Positions 2,481 through 38,819 of a stretch of 38,819 nt of DNA are shown piece by piece. The position numbers were made by a program, and so were the translations under genes. Location: positions 1 through 38,819 of the forward strand of contig JABBOA010000004.1 in assembly GCA_019352075.1 (NCBI GenBank). The letters are read 5' to 3'. Origin of the DNA: Acidobacteriota bacterium (GTDB lineage: Bacteria; Actinomycetota; Acidimicrobiia; Acidimicrobiales; RAAP-2). The number at the start of each line of letters is the position of its first letter. Positions within the stretch are counted from its first letter, which is position 1. The notes below the pieces were generated by a model, which was not told where the DNA came from, did no database searches, and saw nothing but the letters and a program-made list of their open reading frames with translations.

Positions 2481-4847
2481 GTGTCTGACGCGGATAAGCA
2501 GCTGGCTAAGAACTCGCCGGTTCTGACGTCGCACGCCAATCTGTCGGCCGTCTATCCCGAGAGCCTCGGGTACCGGATCAAACGCCTCGTTCTGGGCAAA
2601 CCCTACGTCACCGAACAACTCAGCGGCGAGCGGCTCGGCCGGGGGATCGCGCTCGGGGTGCTGGCGCCGGACTGCATCTCGTCGTCGGCGTACGGCACCG
2701 AGGAGATCCTCACCCAGATGACGCCGTTCATCGGCATCGCGGCGTTCGCACTGGTGGTACCGATCATGTTCGTGATCATCGGGGTCTTGTTGTTCGTCAC
2801 GCTCTCGTATTGGGACGTGATCAAGTACTACACCGCGGCCGGTGGCGCGTACGTGGTGGCGCGCGAGAACTTCGGGCCCAAGGTCGCCCAGGTCGCCGCC
2901 GTGGCCCTGCTGATCGACTACACGGTCACGGTGGCGGTGCAGTGCTCGGCGGGCACCAACGCGCTGACCAGCGCGATCCCGAGCCTGACCCCCTACGCGC
3001 TCAAGATCACCGTCGCCATCGTCTTGATCCTGGTCTTCGGCAACCTCCGGGGGTTGCGCGAAGCGGGTAGCTACTTCGCACTGCCGACGTACCTCTACAT
3101 CCTCGGACTCGGGTCGACGATCGTCTTGGGCTACTACAAGTACTTCGCGGGCACCCTGCACACGGTCGCGGTGCCGACCAACACCGCCTTGGGCTACCAC
3201 CTGGGCACGCCGGGTTCCGGGGCCCTCATGGGCCTGGCCTTCATCTCACTGCTGCGCGCCTACGCCAACGGCGGTTCGTCGCTGACGGGGCTCGAGGCCA
3301 TCTCCAACGGCGTCGCGAGTTTCCGGCGGCCCGAATCCCTGCACGCGCGCCAGACGCTGGTCGTCATGTCGAGCGTGCTGGCGTTCTTGCTCATGGGCAC
3401 GGCGCTGCTGGCGCACTGGACCCACTCGCTCCCGTTCTCCTCGGGCTCACCGACGGTGGTCTCCCAGGAGGTGGGGGCGGTGTTCGGCTACCACGGCACG
3501 GGACACCTGGTCTTCCTCTTCGTGCAGTTCGCCACCGTGCTGATCCTCTATACCGGTGGCAACACCTCGTTCAACGGGTTCCCGTTCCTGGCCAATTACG
3601 TGGCCACCGACAAGTACCTGCCCCGACAGTTGACCAAGCGCGGTCACCGCCTGGCCTTCTCCAACGGCATCATCCTGCTCGGGGTGGTGTCGCTGACGTT
3701 GATCCTCGCCTTCGACGGCAACGTCAACTCCCTCGTCGCCCTCTACGCGATCGGCGTGTTCACCGGGTTCACCATGGCCGGCGCGGGCATGGTCGCGCGC
3801 CACCGGCGCACCCGCGACCCGCACTGGCGTCGCGCCGTCGCCATCAACGGATTCTCCGCCGCCGTGACGGCGCTGGTCGTGGCCATCTTCGTCACCGTGA
3901 AGTTCAAGGAGGGCGCCTGGATCATCGTCCTCGTGGGGCCGATGATGTACTTGGCCCTGTTGCGCTTCAACAAGCAGTATCTGCGCGAGGCCCACGCCTT
4001 CGAGGCCTCGGCGACGTCGGCGCCCATGAACATCCGCACCAATCGAGTGGTCGTCTTCGTGGACAACTACGACCTGGCCACCGAGCGCGCTCTGCAGTAC
4101 TGCAACACGCTCAACGCCTATTCGGTGCGCGCCGTGCACTTCGACATCGACCCGATGGTCACGCGACACCTCGAGACGCGCTGGGGCCGTCCCGATACCG
4201 CCTCGGAGTCGATCAGTCTGGAGATCGTCGAGTGCGAGGACCGTCGACTCGACCGGGCGGCCCTCGAACTCGTCGCCGACGTCGTGCGCGACCCCGACGT
4301 CTTTTGCATGGTGATCCTGCCGCGCCGGGGTTTCGTCTCGCGGCTGCAGCGTCTGCTGCACGACCGCACCGCCGACGCCATGGCGGGCGCCGTGATGCAG
4401 ATCCCACGGACGGCGGCGACGATTATCCCGTACCGCGCGAGTCGTAGCCGTCTGGCGCAGGGGGACCTCACCGAGGTGCCCATCAGCGACGAGGTGGTGC
4501 GCGGGGGCGTGCGTGAGGAGTCGCACCTCGAAGCGGACCTCAAGCTGGCCGAGCGCTCCGGTGGTGCCGCGCCGATCGGGGGACTGCGCGAGCGCAGTTT
4601 CGTGGAGATCGCGGGACGCGTGCGCGCCATGACGATCACGCGCGAGAACGGCACGAGTGACCTGCGCTGTCTCATCGTCGACAACTCCGGGTCGGTGGCG
4701 TTGATCTTTCAGGGGCGTAGCGTGGTCCCGGGCATCGAGCGCGGGACCCGGCTGTTGGTACGCGGGACCGTCACCTCACTGCGCCGCGAGGCGGTCATTC
4801 TCAATCCCCAGTACGAGATCGTGGCGGCTCCCGCGAGCGACGATTAG
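2481..4847 (+). CDS. APC/KimA-like permease with USP-like domain and fused C-terminal OB-fold
   Basis: 788 residues from GTG 2481 (alternatives GTG 2472, ATG 2469). Residues about 60-510 hold roughly twelve hydrophobic segments of the APC superfamily; the ALGVLAPDCISSSAYGTEE stretch is typical of the YdaO/KimA and Rv2690c group. Next comes a soluble domain (NRVVVFVDNYDLATERALQY onward) resembling the universal-stress-like domain of KimA K+ importers. The last about 85 residues (SFVEIAGRVRAMTITR ... VPGIERGTRLLVRGTV ... LNPQYEI) form an OB-fold like the separate OB-fold protein encoded in the mycobacterial ceoBC neighbourhood (Rv2694c type). Fusion of that protein to the permease is unusual. 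The TrkA pair next door makes potassium the likeliest substrate, but amino-acid transport cannot be excluded. Confidence 0.85.
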   Translation: MSDADKQLAKNSPVLTSHANLSAVYPESLGYRIKRLVLGKPYVTEQLSGERLGRGIALGVLAPDCISSSAYGTEEILTQMTPFIGIAAFALVVPIMFVIIGVLLFVTLSYWDVIKYYTAAGGAYVVARENFGPKVAQVAAVALLIDYTVTVAVQCSAGTNALTSAIPSLTPYALKITVAIVLILVFGNLRGLREAGSYFALPTYLYILGLGSTIVLGYYKYFAGTLHTVAVPTNTALGYHLGTPGSGALMGLAFISLLRAYANGGSSLTGLEAISNGVASFRRPESLHARQTLVVMSSVLAFLLMGTALLAHWTHSLPFSSGSPTVVSQEVGAVFGYHGTGHLVFLFVQFATVLILYTGGNTSFNGFPFLANYVATDKYLPRQLTKRGHRLAFSNGIILLGVVSLTLILAFDGNVNSLVALYAIGVFTGFTMAGAGMVARHRRTRDPHWRRAVAINGFSAAVTALVVAIFVTVKFKEGAWIIVLVGPMMYLALLRFNKQYLREAHAFEASATSAPMNIRTNRVVVFVDNYDLATERALQYCNTLNAYSVRAVHFDIDPMVTRHLETRWGRPDTASESISLEIVECEDRRLDRAALELVADVVRDPDVFCMVILPRRGFVSRLQRLLHDRTADAMAGAVMQIPRTAATIIPYRASRSRLAQGDLTEVPISDEVVRGGVREESHLEADLKLAERSGGAAPIGGLRERSFVEIAGRVRAMTITRENGTSDLRCLIVDNSGSVALIFQGRSVVPGIERGTRLLVRGTVTSLRREAVILNPQYEIVAAPASDD

Positions 4848-36655: not shown

Positions 36656-37168
36656 GTGGCTACTTCGCGCGAATCGTCCGGCTCCCCTAAGGGTGGCTCG
36701 CACTACCAGCCGTCTCTCGGTGTCATGCTCATCATCCTGGTGCTCTTCGTCGGTACCACTTTCGTGGCGTTGCGCGCCCACGCGACGGGACACGCGCCGA
36801 CGCCCACCACTCATCGCCCCAAGTCCACCGCTAAAACCACGACCACTGGAGCAACAACGTCCACCACCGTGCCCAAGTCGCAGGTCAGTGTGCAGGTCGC
36901 CAACGGCACGACGGTGAGCGGACTAGCGGGCACCTACACGACGAAGTTGCAGCTCCTGGGCTGGAATACCCTGCCCCGCCTCAACGGACCGGCCCAAACG
37001 GCGACGGTCATCTACTACCACCCGGGTTACCTGTGGGCGGCTCAGGAGATCGCGGCGGAGATCCCGGTCCCCGCGACCGCGGTCAAGCCCATTGGCATCA
37101 CGAGGCCCGTGCCTGGCGCCGCGGGCGACGACATCGTGGTCATCCTGGGCCCCGACGCCGCGGGCTAA
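36656..37168 (+). CDS. Single-pass membrane protein with LytR_C domain
   Basis: 170 residues from GTG 36656. A short cytoplasmic N-terminus is followed by one transmembrane helix (GVMLIILVLFVGTTFVALRA, about 22-41), a Thr/Pro/Ser-rich extracellular linker, and a C-terminal domain from about residue 78: VSVQVANGTTVSGLAGTYT, LQLLGWNTL, TVIYYHPGY and IVVILGPDAA. That pattern fits the LytR cell-envelope attenuator C-terminal domain (LytR_C), found alone in many actinobacterial wall proteins; its ligand is unknown. The stop overlaps the opposing gpgS stop by four bases. Confidence 0.8.
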   Translation: MATSRESSGSPKGGSHYQPSLGVMLIILVLFVGTTFVALRAHATGHAPTPTTHRPKSTAKTTTTGATTSTTVPKSQVSVQVANGTTVSGLAGTYTTKLQLLGWNTLPRLNGPAQTATVIYYHPGYLWAAQEIAAEIPVPATAVKPIGITRPVPGAAGDDIVVILGPDAAG

Positions 37169-37941
37169 CCCCGTGCGGGGAGATCCACGTGGAATCGATC
37201 GAGCGCGACTTTGAGCACTTCGGTCGCCATGGGGCGCAGTTCCTCCAGGGGCCGGTTGCGGTGGCGTCGAACTCCGAGGTCGACTTGGGCGAGCGACCCC
37301 ACGCCAAATTTCTGCGCCACGTCGATCAAGAGGGCGATTTCGACGCCGTAGGCAGACTCAAGGGTCAATGCGTCAAGGGTCTCGTGGCGAATCGCCGTCT
37401 CGCCCGCAAGAGGTTGGCGGATGTCGCCGAGGCCCGAATAGAGCAGTGACAGGATTGGTCGGGCGGTCAGTTCATTGACCCGGCCGCCCCCACGCGGCAT
37501 GTCGAGCAGGGGGCGTTCGTAGTATCCCTTGACGAGGTGGACGTCGGGGCGCTCCAAGAGGGGCTGCACCATCCGCGCCACGTAATCGACCCCCGGATTC
37601 AGTACGTCGCCGTCGAGGAAGACCACGATCTCCGCGTCGATCGCCGCCACACCGGCGGCGAGGGCTTCTCCCTTGCCGGTGCCGTCGCGCAGAGGGAGTA
37701 CGCGCGCGCCGTGGCGCGCGGCGACTGATGCGGTGTCGTCGCGGGAGTGGTCGTCGACCACGATGATGTGGTCAACAAACCCCTCGTGGTGCGCCACGGC
37801 GTCGATAACTCCCCCGATGGTCGTCGCTTCGTTCTGGGCCGGGATGACGACGGCGATTGCGTGGCCCCGACGTAGATCCCAGACCGTGGCCAGATCGAAG
37901 TCGACGTCGGCGAGGGTCCAAGGGGCGTCAACGCTTTTCAT
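37165..37941 (-). CDS. gpgS: Glucosyl-3-phosphoglycerate synthase (GT family 81/GT-A)
   Basis: 258 residues from ATG 37941. It transfers glucose from a nucleotide sugar to 3-phosphoglycerate, the first step to glucosylglycerate and, in mycobacteria, to methylglucose lipopolysaccharides. GT-A features: VVIPAQNEATTIGGVI (31-46), VVDDHSRDDT, GKGEALAAG (89-97), metal-binding DGD (110-112), VKGYYERP, GGGRVNELTARP (151-162), QPLAGE and YGVEIALLID, DLGVRRHRNRPL. These match GpgS rather than generic family 2 enzymes. It is shorter than the mycobacterial protein (about 320 residues), mainly at the ends. Confidence 0.87.
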   Translation of the reverse strand: MKSVDAPWTLADVDFDLATVWDLRRGHAIAVVIPAQNEATTIGGVIDAVAHHEGFVDHIIVVDDHSRDDTASVAARHGARVLPLRDGTGKGEALAAGVAAIDAEIVVFLDGDVLNPGVDYVARMVQPLLERPDVHLVKGYYERPLLDMPRGGGRVNELTARPILSLLYSGLGDIRQPLAGETAIRHETLDALTLESAYGVEIALLIDVAQKFGVGSLAQVDLGVRRHRNRPLEELRPMATEVLKVALDRFHVDLPARG

Positions 37942-37977: not shown

Positions 37978-38006
37978 TTGACACCACTACAGTGATTAGA
38001 CAGAAT
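37978..38006 (+). promoter_or_regulatory. Strong sigma-A promoter for the SAM riboswitch and thrC
   Basis: TTGACA (37978-37983), a 17-base spacer and CAGAAT (38001-38006). The -35 is a perfect consensus match. Transcription should start near 38012-38014, right at the 5' edge of the riboswitch. Confidence 0.65.
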
Positions 38007-38013
38007 AGTTATG

Positions 38014-38126
38014 TCATCAAGAGCGACTGAGGGGCGGGCCCGATGAAGTCGCGACAACCAGTGTGAATCACAGTAACCCTGTCACACCAGGTGCCAAAGC
38101 CCGAGCGATGAAAAGGGAGATATGAG
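38014..38126 (+). ncRNA. SAM-I (S-box) riboswitch overlapping the thrC start
   Basis: The order of conserved elements matches the S-box aptamer: ATCAAGAG at 38016-38023; P2a GCGAC (38023-38027) with GTCGC (38048-38052); GGCCCGATGAA (38037-38047); the CAACC-like ACAACC after P2; P3 GTGTGA (38061-38066) with TCACAC (38082-38087); AGGTGCCAAA (38089-38098); and P4 CCC (38100-38102) with GGG (38115-38117). The P1 3' strand GAT(AT)GA covers the thrC AUG and the region just after the Shine-Dalgarno-like AAGGG. No terminator stem follows, so control should be at translation start: SAM binding would hide the ribosome site. P1 is short and imperfect by eye. Confidence 0.85.
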
Positions 38127-38819
38127 TTTCGCTACCGGTCTACTATGTCGAGAGTGTGGTACCGCCTACCCGGCGGAGGCTCGCTACTCGTGTGAATACT
38201 GCTTTGGGCCGCTCGAGGTCAGTTATGACCTGGAGTCCGCCAAGAGTGTCGTGACGCGTGAGTCCATCGAAGCGGGACCGCGATCGATCTGGCGCTACGG
38301 GGCCCTCTTGCCCGACCCGGGTGTCGAGCCCGTGGACCTGGGCGCCGGATGGACCCCGCTACGCCGCGCCACTCGTCTGGGCGAGGTGCTCGGGGTCAAG
38401 GAACTCTGGCTCAAGGACGACACGCGCAATCCCACGGGTTCTTTCAAGGACCGGGTGGTCTCGGTGGCGCTGTCGAGCGCGCGCCGATTGGGCTTCACCA
38501 CGGCGGCCTGCGCCTCCACCGGGAATCTCGCCACGTCCGTCGCCGCCCACGCGGCGTTCATCGGCTGGCCGAGCGTGACGATCATCCCCTCGGACCTAGA
38601 GAAGTCCAAGATAGCGATGACCGCGATCTTCGGTGGCACCGTGTTGGGGGTGGAGGGAAACTACGACGACGTGAACCGACTGTGCGTCGAGCTCGTCGCC
38701 GAACACCCCGACTGGGCGTTCGCCAACGTCAATCTGCGGCCGTACTACGCCGAGGGCTCCAAGACCCTGGCCTTCGAGATCTGCGAGCAGCTGGGCTGGA
38801 GCACACCGGACCAGGTGGT
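38122..38819 (+). CDS. thrC: Threonine synthase (partial, runs off the window)
   Basis: 232 codons from ATG 38122 to the window edge. It converts O-phosphohomoserine to threonine with PLP. An N-terminal zinc ribbon (C9-x2-C12, C24-x2-C27) precedes the catalytic fold; the PLP lysine is K109 in NPTGSFKDR, and CASTGNLATSVAAHAA supplies the phosphate-binding stretch. This zinc-ribbon form is common in actinobacteria, archaea and cyanobacteria; related PLP enzymes such as cysteate synthase look similar, and the missing C-terminus prevents a full check. The start is enclosed by the SAM riboswitch, with AAGGG four bases upstream. Confidence 0.88.
   Translation, partial: MSFATGLLCRECGTAYPAEARYSCEYCFGPLEVSYDLESAKSVVTRESIEAGPRSIWRYGALLPDPGVEPVDLGAGWTPLRRATRLGEVLGVKELWLKDDTRNPTGSFKDRVVSVALSSARRLGFTTAACASTGNLATSVAAHAAFIGWPSVTIIPSDLEKSKIAMTAIFGGTVLGVEGNYDDVNRLCVELVAEHPDWAFANVNLRPYYAEGSKTLAFEICEQLGWSTPDQV

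Follow-up and report, generated by a model that had tools for sequence, protein, structure and literature searches.

The window analysed here, a 38,819-nt stretch of contig JABBOA010000004.1, ends in a leader RNA followed by the first part of a gene that the protein libraries call threonine synthase (Table 1). Running the Infernal check against RF00162 (SAM-I, or S-box) that the first-pass annotation had proposed gave a significant cmscan match of 57.4 bits (gathering score 44.4, E 7.4e-11), which bore out its claim of an S-box aptamer. This was the sole RF00162 match at E ≤ 0.001 in the organism's own genome (2.06 Mb in 165 contigs, 91% complete). The gene behind the aptamer is cut by the contig end, and the last 55 nt of the window are identical to the reversed start of contig C160, where the reading frame goes on past this exact overlap. 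There it is adjoined by a sulfur-carrier gene with a C-terminal GG (C160:3879-3604; 91 aa, ending in VPAVAGG, 51 bits to PF02597), whose start and the stop of the first gene share 4 nt. We refer to the two genes as metM and metO. A GroEL-like gene (named by eye) lies downstream of metO, and on the other side of the leader a glycosyltransferase-like gene (named by eye; 37165-37941, minus strand) diverges from metM, with about 70 bp between its start and the predicted start of metM transcription.

Table 1 Features of the metM leader and gene, in window positions unless a contig is named.
Feature	Position	Strand	Basis
Promoter-like site: -35 TTGACA 37978-37983, 17-nt spacer, -10 CAGAAT 38001-38006	37978..38006	+	site search
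SAM-clan aptamer of P4-less form, nearest to family SAM-I (S-box, RF00162)	38011..38114	+	covariance-model match
P1 5' strand, UCAUC	38014..38018	+	P1 pairing analysis
P2: outer strands GCGAC 38023-38027 and GTCGC 38048-38052, enclosing an inner stem and apical loop	38023..38052	+	Rfam alignment
PK-1 strand in P2 loop, CGGG	38035..38038	+	pairing across relatives
P3 with segments CAACC and GGTG	38053..38095	+	Rfam alignment
PK-1 strand in J3/4, CCCG	38100..38103	+	pairing across relatives
P1 3' strand, GAUGA	38107..38111	+	P1 pairing analysis
Shine-Dalgarno GGGAG, 3 nt 3' of the 5-bp P1	38115..38119	+	sequence
First 232 codons of a metM-like gene that the libraries name threonine synthase; ATG 38122-38124; continues on C160 at 4478..3876 (-)	38122..38819	+	ORF

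The arrangement recurs among relatives. Among 120 family genomes drawn from a larger group, RF00162 was matched in 111 and in none of the other 9, giving 148 matches. The first-pass annotation had suggested inspecting related upstream regions, and this confirmed the association, with 109 of the matches, in 108 of the 120 genomes, lying directly ahead of a window-type gene; the other 39, in 32 genomes, lay away from metM, and three genomes held only such copies. A class-wide search matched RF00162 in 235 of 395 genomes, and the 30 best-scoring loci had a window-type gene downstream in 11 cases and a MetY-like gene (by eye) in 11 more. The best 80 matches of a contig scan included named Streptomyces orthologues, whose identity to the window gene's congener is 56–58%. 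When 20 loci hand-picked among the more distant matches listed were scanned, RF00162 was found upstream in 18, including all eight named Streptomyces, Frankia, Kutzneria and a Bacillota MAG in which it lay about 500 nt from the MetM gene, while none was found upstream of the other two, L270 (Omnitrophota) and L273 (Nitrospira).

Of the 109 metM leaders, 108 could be parsed for aptamer structure. The five outer pairs of P2 form in all 108, with changes seen at three of the pairs, and PK-1, allowing one loop trim, is complete in every one, its pair 28-65 being swapped from G-C to C-G in 14 leaders. Taking all loci together, PK-1 was complete in 137 of 139 parsed (8 of the 39 non-metM loci were unparsed), against a mean of 68.7 and a maximum of 80 after shuffling. 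The SAM-I core nucleotides are kept in the window aptamer, which would be expected to bind SAM, and the CAACC and GGTG segments of P3 are presumably the SAM contacts. The window P3 has a mismatch at pair 43-59 that is common to 34 of the 108 parsed leaders. P4 is missing: its columns are deleted in the window's Rfam alignment, and the distance from GGTGCCAA to P1 is 9 nt in 105 of the 108 parsed family leaders. When 13 leaders from outside the family were tried (two unparsed), L256 and L261 also had 9 nt, whereas four measured named Streptomyces leaders had 32–34 nt. Because the RF00162 element lacks P4, we name it a P4-less variant and not a typical SAM-I RNA.

Compared with SAM-I, the window RNA has in common P1, P2 with its loop, P3, PK-1 and the CAACC/GGTG core, but it lacks P4, has a P1 of only 5 bp and has no separate expression platform. 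As described in an excerpt of PMC6890682, SAM-I has P4, SAM-IV has PK-1 plus P5/PK-2 and no P4, and SAM-I/IV has P4 and no PK-1. By the same excerpt the window RNA shares PK-1, the absence of P4 and a short P1 with SAM-IV (RF00634), but SAM-IV has P5 and PK-2 downstream, whereas the family RNAs reach the start codon 5–16 nt after P1 (10 nt in 60 of the 109 leaders, with start codons assigned by script). Judged on this architecture and not on an RF00634 score, membership of SAM-IV was rejected, as neither a P5 hairpin nor a PK-2 was found; a SAM-IV-like PK-2 between the P3 loop and the Shine-Dalgarno (SD) sequence gave a mean longest pairing of 2.99 against 2.74 in shuffled sequence, with p ≤ 0.1 in 2 of 108. 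SAM-I/IV (RF01725) belongs to the same clan as SAM-I, and membership there was likewise rejected, with no RF01725 match in the own genome at E ≤ 10. The window RNA carries PK-1 alone, without P4 and without room for P5/PK-2, and this reduced SAM-I-type aptamer is a real SAM-clan riboswitch.

The near-consensus promoter claimed in the first-pass annotation also stood, matching the consensus at 10 of 12 positions and found once against a mean of 0.2 in shuffles. The best match to the -35 element was 5 or 6 of 6 in 86 of the 109 related leaders, compared with 7% of shuffled stretches, and in 85 of those 86 it lies 36–41 nt before the P1 anchor. Because this position is conserved, transcription probably starts at the 5' edge of P1, near 38013. 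The annotation had further placed the start codon inside P1, which proved wrong, since the window P1 has 5 bp and both SD and ATG lie 3' of it. Counted as contiguous pairs from the inner C-G pair, P1 has 5 bp in 95 of the 109 family leaders; it is longer (6 bp) in 7 and shorter in the rest, with 4 bp in 5 leaders and 3 bp in 2. The sixth position outward is unpaired in 100 and paired in 9, ruling out a P1 that extends into the SD or the start codon. The SD match starts with, or 1–4 nt past, the last P1 base in 103 leaders, and two leaders have no SD match. A search of the window leader for a terminator-like site found none, and 7 nt separate the RF00162 match from the ATG, in keeping with the earlier remark that there is no separate expression platform. 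An AUG within the P1 strand GAUGA opens a five-codon frame (ATG AAA AGG GAG ATA TGA, 38108-38125), by eye without an SD of its own, whose stop overlaps the metM ATG; as a conserved feature it was rejected, being absent by eye from L062, L065 and L039.

A strict 5-bp P1 ending at the SD suggests that P1, once stabilised by SAM, would hinder 30S binding sterically. Folding of the 109 leaders did not make the SD any less accessible once P1 had formed (mean accessibility 0.50 against 0.49, 55 of the 109 shifting in one direction); control by base pairing is therefore unsupported, and the sign of the switch rests on geometry and precedent. An alternative SD/anti-SD fold was rejected, no single partner dominating and accessibility being equal in both states, as was a CCC/GGG pairing of the SD with J3/4, which is broken in 14 leaders with GGCCG. 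The unchanged accessibility and an SD that is itself unpaired in P1 would also suit an RNA through which SAM turns translation on, or one that acts via transcription (for example Rho) and not by SD occlusion. We think such a mode unlikely, since no terminator-like site was detected and none would fit ahead of the ATG, a conserved partner of the SD was not found (the J3/4 pairing is broken in those 14 leaders and the P3-loop pairing is at chance), and end-product repression is expected of a biosynthetic operon.

We then compared the window gene with housekeeping threonine synthase, using P0001, a full-length congener of the window protein (415 aa, from genome G130), as a stand-in for profile and structure scores. 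P0001 matches PALP plus several threonine-synthase models, and NCBIfam names the window-type protein threonine synthase, P0001 scoring 268.7 bits to TIGR00260 thrC (cut-off 167.1). A survey with P0001 covered 59 family genomes, the own one 91% complete and all others at least 94%; with some gene copies lying in pieces at contig ends, it found a window-type gene in 57, a second ThrC, about 35–40% identical, in 58, and both in 56; G461 has a window-type gene and no second ThrC match, and the second ThrC of G469 and of G492 has internal stops. The own second ThrC scored 427 bits against M. tuberculosis threonine synthase (2d1f), compared with 172 bits for P0001, whose best score was 185. It adjoins lysA-hom on the 3' side in the own genome, as in G130 and G126, and in G055 the second ThrC lies between hom and thrB (lysA and hom were named by sequence recognition, thrB confirmed by profile search). 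The window gene shows neither a hom/thrB neighbourhood nor the best match to a solved ThrC. In a tree of 36 rows, 24 window-type and 11 ThrC-type proteins split at 100/99 support, with one long-branch row outside both groups. The window-type clade, ThrC-like and distinct from housekeeping ThrC, includes Streptomyces proteins of the same gene order, with RF00162 upstream and a ThiS-type carrier downstream (S. albulus MetM is not among them). All 24 window-type proteins have cysteines at 9, 12, 24 and 27, which are lacking from the ThrC type, except in one row at 27, and 29 further positions are fixed in the MetM-like group and different in the ThrC type. All eight genomes reached from more distant loci, whose kinship is not given, hold a window-type gene and a second ThrC-like gene, the second match in G500 being partial.

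Coupling to a carrier gene is similarly widespread. Leaving aside 28 of the 109 family loci in which no judgement was possible (26 with no room, 2 cut), a MetO-type gene lies next to metM in 79 of the 81 assessable, none being found in the other 2. Sixty-eight of the 79 proteins end in GG, 54 of these with the 4-nt overlap, and 11 carry one or two residues beyond GG. Of the best 80 loci of the distant scan, 3 could not be assessed; 72 of the other 77 have the carrier gene downstream and 5 lack it. Among the matches listed, all 8 Streptomyces loci have it. Beyond the terminal GG, one or two Cys are present in MetO of L062, L069, L072, L081, L094, L096 and L107 and in six of the Streptomyces loci, there as one extra residue, so these MetO proteins would need trimming before thiocarboxylation.

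Streptomyces MetM reportedly uses thiocarboxylated MetO and O-phosphohomoserine. In the CysO-CysM cysteine synthesis of M. tuberculosis, sulfur is donated by a protein thiocarboxylate, the enzyme depends on PLP and its substrate is a phospho-amino acid; the window pair would have these three elements in common with it, but with a ThrC-like enzyme and O-phosphohomoserine instead. A CysM-like gene (named by eye) is found elsewhere in the own genome (L190). According to an excerpt of PMC12172450, Hasebe et al. 2024 (AEM 90:e01247-24) identified MetM as a Streptomyces homocysteine synthase; the excerpt also places a SAM riboswitch upstream of S. albulus metM, compares a neighbouring sulfur-carrier gene with metO, and describes a cyanobacterial MetM homologue that in vitro acts as both a threonine synthase and a threonine deaminase, making some threonine. 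A link between SAM riboswitch and metM is thus already reported in Streptomyces. As far as that excerpt goes, Streptomyces metM-metO and the window locus share the ThrC-like enzyme, the ThiS-type carrier gene and the SAM riboswitch upstream; the window locus differs in its Acidimicrobiia-type family, an RNA without P4, a carrier that overlaps metM by 4 nt and a function that we infer. An excerpt of PMC8079986 gives for S. lividans TK24 an RNA-seq-validated RF00162 ahead of SLIV_16930-SLIV_16925, labelled threonine biosynthesis, so that an RF00162 before a two-gene "threonine biosynthesis" transcript is common to both, whereas the four measured Streptomyces leaders have 32–34 nt between GGTGCCAA and P1, the place of P4, where the window has 9 nt. 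The parts of the literature consulted on SAM riboswitches with threonine synthase, or with Acidimicrobi, gave no description of the present case.

On these comparisons the window gene very probably encodes a MetM-type enzyme and is not thrC, and its product would convert O-phosphohomoserine to homocysteine with thiocarboxylated MetO. The thrC label of the first-pass annotation is therefore not borne out, as the ordinary ThrC is encoded elsewhere, after lysA-hom, and the window gene falls in the MetM-like clade; its alternative of a methionine-related role gains support from the MetM-like paralogy, the MetO-like carrier and the separate ThrC. Its suggestion that the locus links the two branches of O-phosphohomoserine use holds in that the two genes would compete, but the window gene most likely belongs to the methionine side. 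The contrast drawn with the SAM-activated plant threonine synthase does not arise, because the gene is MetM-like, has a MetO-like carrier and coexists with a separate ThrC. The homocysteine- and threonine-forming reactions share chemistry, and a bifunctional enzyme, forming homocysteine with the MetO-thiocarboxylate and threonine otherwise, would let SAM touch both amino acids. We regard this as improbable: G461, with no second ThrC match, and the in vitro activities of the cyanobacterial homologue (PMC12172450, excerpt) would fit it, but 58 of 59 genomes have a separate ThrC (two copies with internal stops) and the MetM-like group has 29 fixed positions at which ThrC-B differs. That the gene is a true threonine synthase through which SAM balances threonine against methionine flux is very hard to credit despite the above-cut-off TIGR00260 match, since the second gene, found in 58 of 59 genomes, fits ThrC far better in its score to 2d1f, its neighbourhood and its clade, and the window gene is coupled to a sulfur-carrier gene.

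The methionine pathway content of the 59 genomes was consistent with a MetM-type role. MetX was found in 29 (matches >400 bits, the next being <35 bits; none reached the curated 500 bits, and controls likewise fell below it), and MetA in 6, every one with MetX. MetH (S-methyl_trans) and ThrB were each found in 58, ThrB being above the cut-off in 47. Full-length or large PF01053 matches (>260 bits) occurred in 37 genomes, a count that leaves out weaker matches, with which the total is 58. Of the 30 genomes without MetX, 28 hold MetM, and 22 of these 28, including the own genome, also lack a full-length PF01053 enzyme, leaving MetM as the only candidate homocysteine-forming enzyme found in these 22 by searches that did not extend to MetE or to PF01837, which stands for homocysteine synthesis from aspartate semialdehyde. 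With the genomes mostly drafts and the own one at 91% completeness, any single absence carries little weight. G055 and G326 hold neither MetM nor MetX. In G055 and G063 a PF01053 gene lies beside a cystathionine-beta-synthase-like gene (named by eye), which suggests reverse transsulfuration. G099, which holds MetM, has metY in pieces and a metX with an internal stop (G099:C43:15979-18329), an apparent decay of the MetX/MetY route.

We consider it highly likely that the SAM-clan riboswitch, closest to SAM-I, provides product feedback on the metM-metO operon and that this explains the locus as a whole. Transcripts would start with the aptamer's 5' edge. MetM, which resembles threonine synthase and is a PLP enzyme carrying an N-terminal Cys4 knuckle, would act with MetO (ThiS/CysO-type, GG end) to convert O-phosphohomoserine to homocysteine, which MetH would carry on to methionine and thence to SAM. 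When SAM is plentiful, the core and the 5-bp P1 would be locked, and with the end of P1 at the SD or a few nt away from it the 30S subunit could not load; when SAM is scarce, P1 would open and metM would be translated, metO being translated along with it through the 4-nt overlap. As the gene appears to be MetM-type and on the methionine side, control by SAM would be ordinary product feedback, and the apparent paradox of SAM repressing threonine synthesis is removed; what is less usual is the pared-down form of the RNA. The case indicates that a database name can be put right by riboswitch context, the "threonine synthase" of the libraries being very likely a homocysteine synthase, and it predicts that a good part of this small-genome actinobacterial family makes methionine through the recently described MetM/MetO route only. 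With the compact RNA one can also ask if a 5-bp P1 next to the SD suffices to switch translation. More tentatively, and leaning slightly against its holding in every part, we join these points into one reading: a PK-1-only SAM-I core with a 5-bp P1 at the SD may form a steric clamp without an alternative fold that governs the sole homocysteine route (MetM/MetO, replacing MetX/MetY) in part of the family, with small accessory genes of unrelated kinds having adopted the RNA design too.

The 39 non-metM RF00162 loci (among L036-L187) have the P4-less design, with swapped and compensated base pairs in P3, and the small genes that begin a few nt after them are non-methionine genes. Five unrelated families account, by eye, for about 26 of them: proteins of 126–136 aa, proteins with "PGHxVHWIQ/LWNHDP", TY-Chap3, proteins with "GWxLWNxSKRIS", and GNAT; the others lack a clear frame. 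PADLOC gave no match for four proteins from these loci. An integron origin was rejected, direct repeats being absent from two of three regions and the third holding two short two-copy families. At L036, in genome G417, the RF00162 element lies 17 nt ahead of a homoserine dehydrogenase gene.
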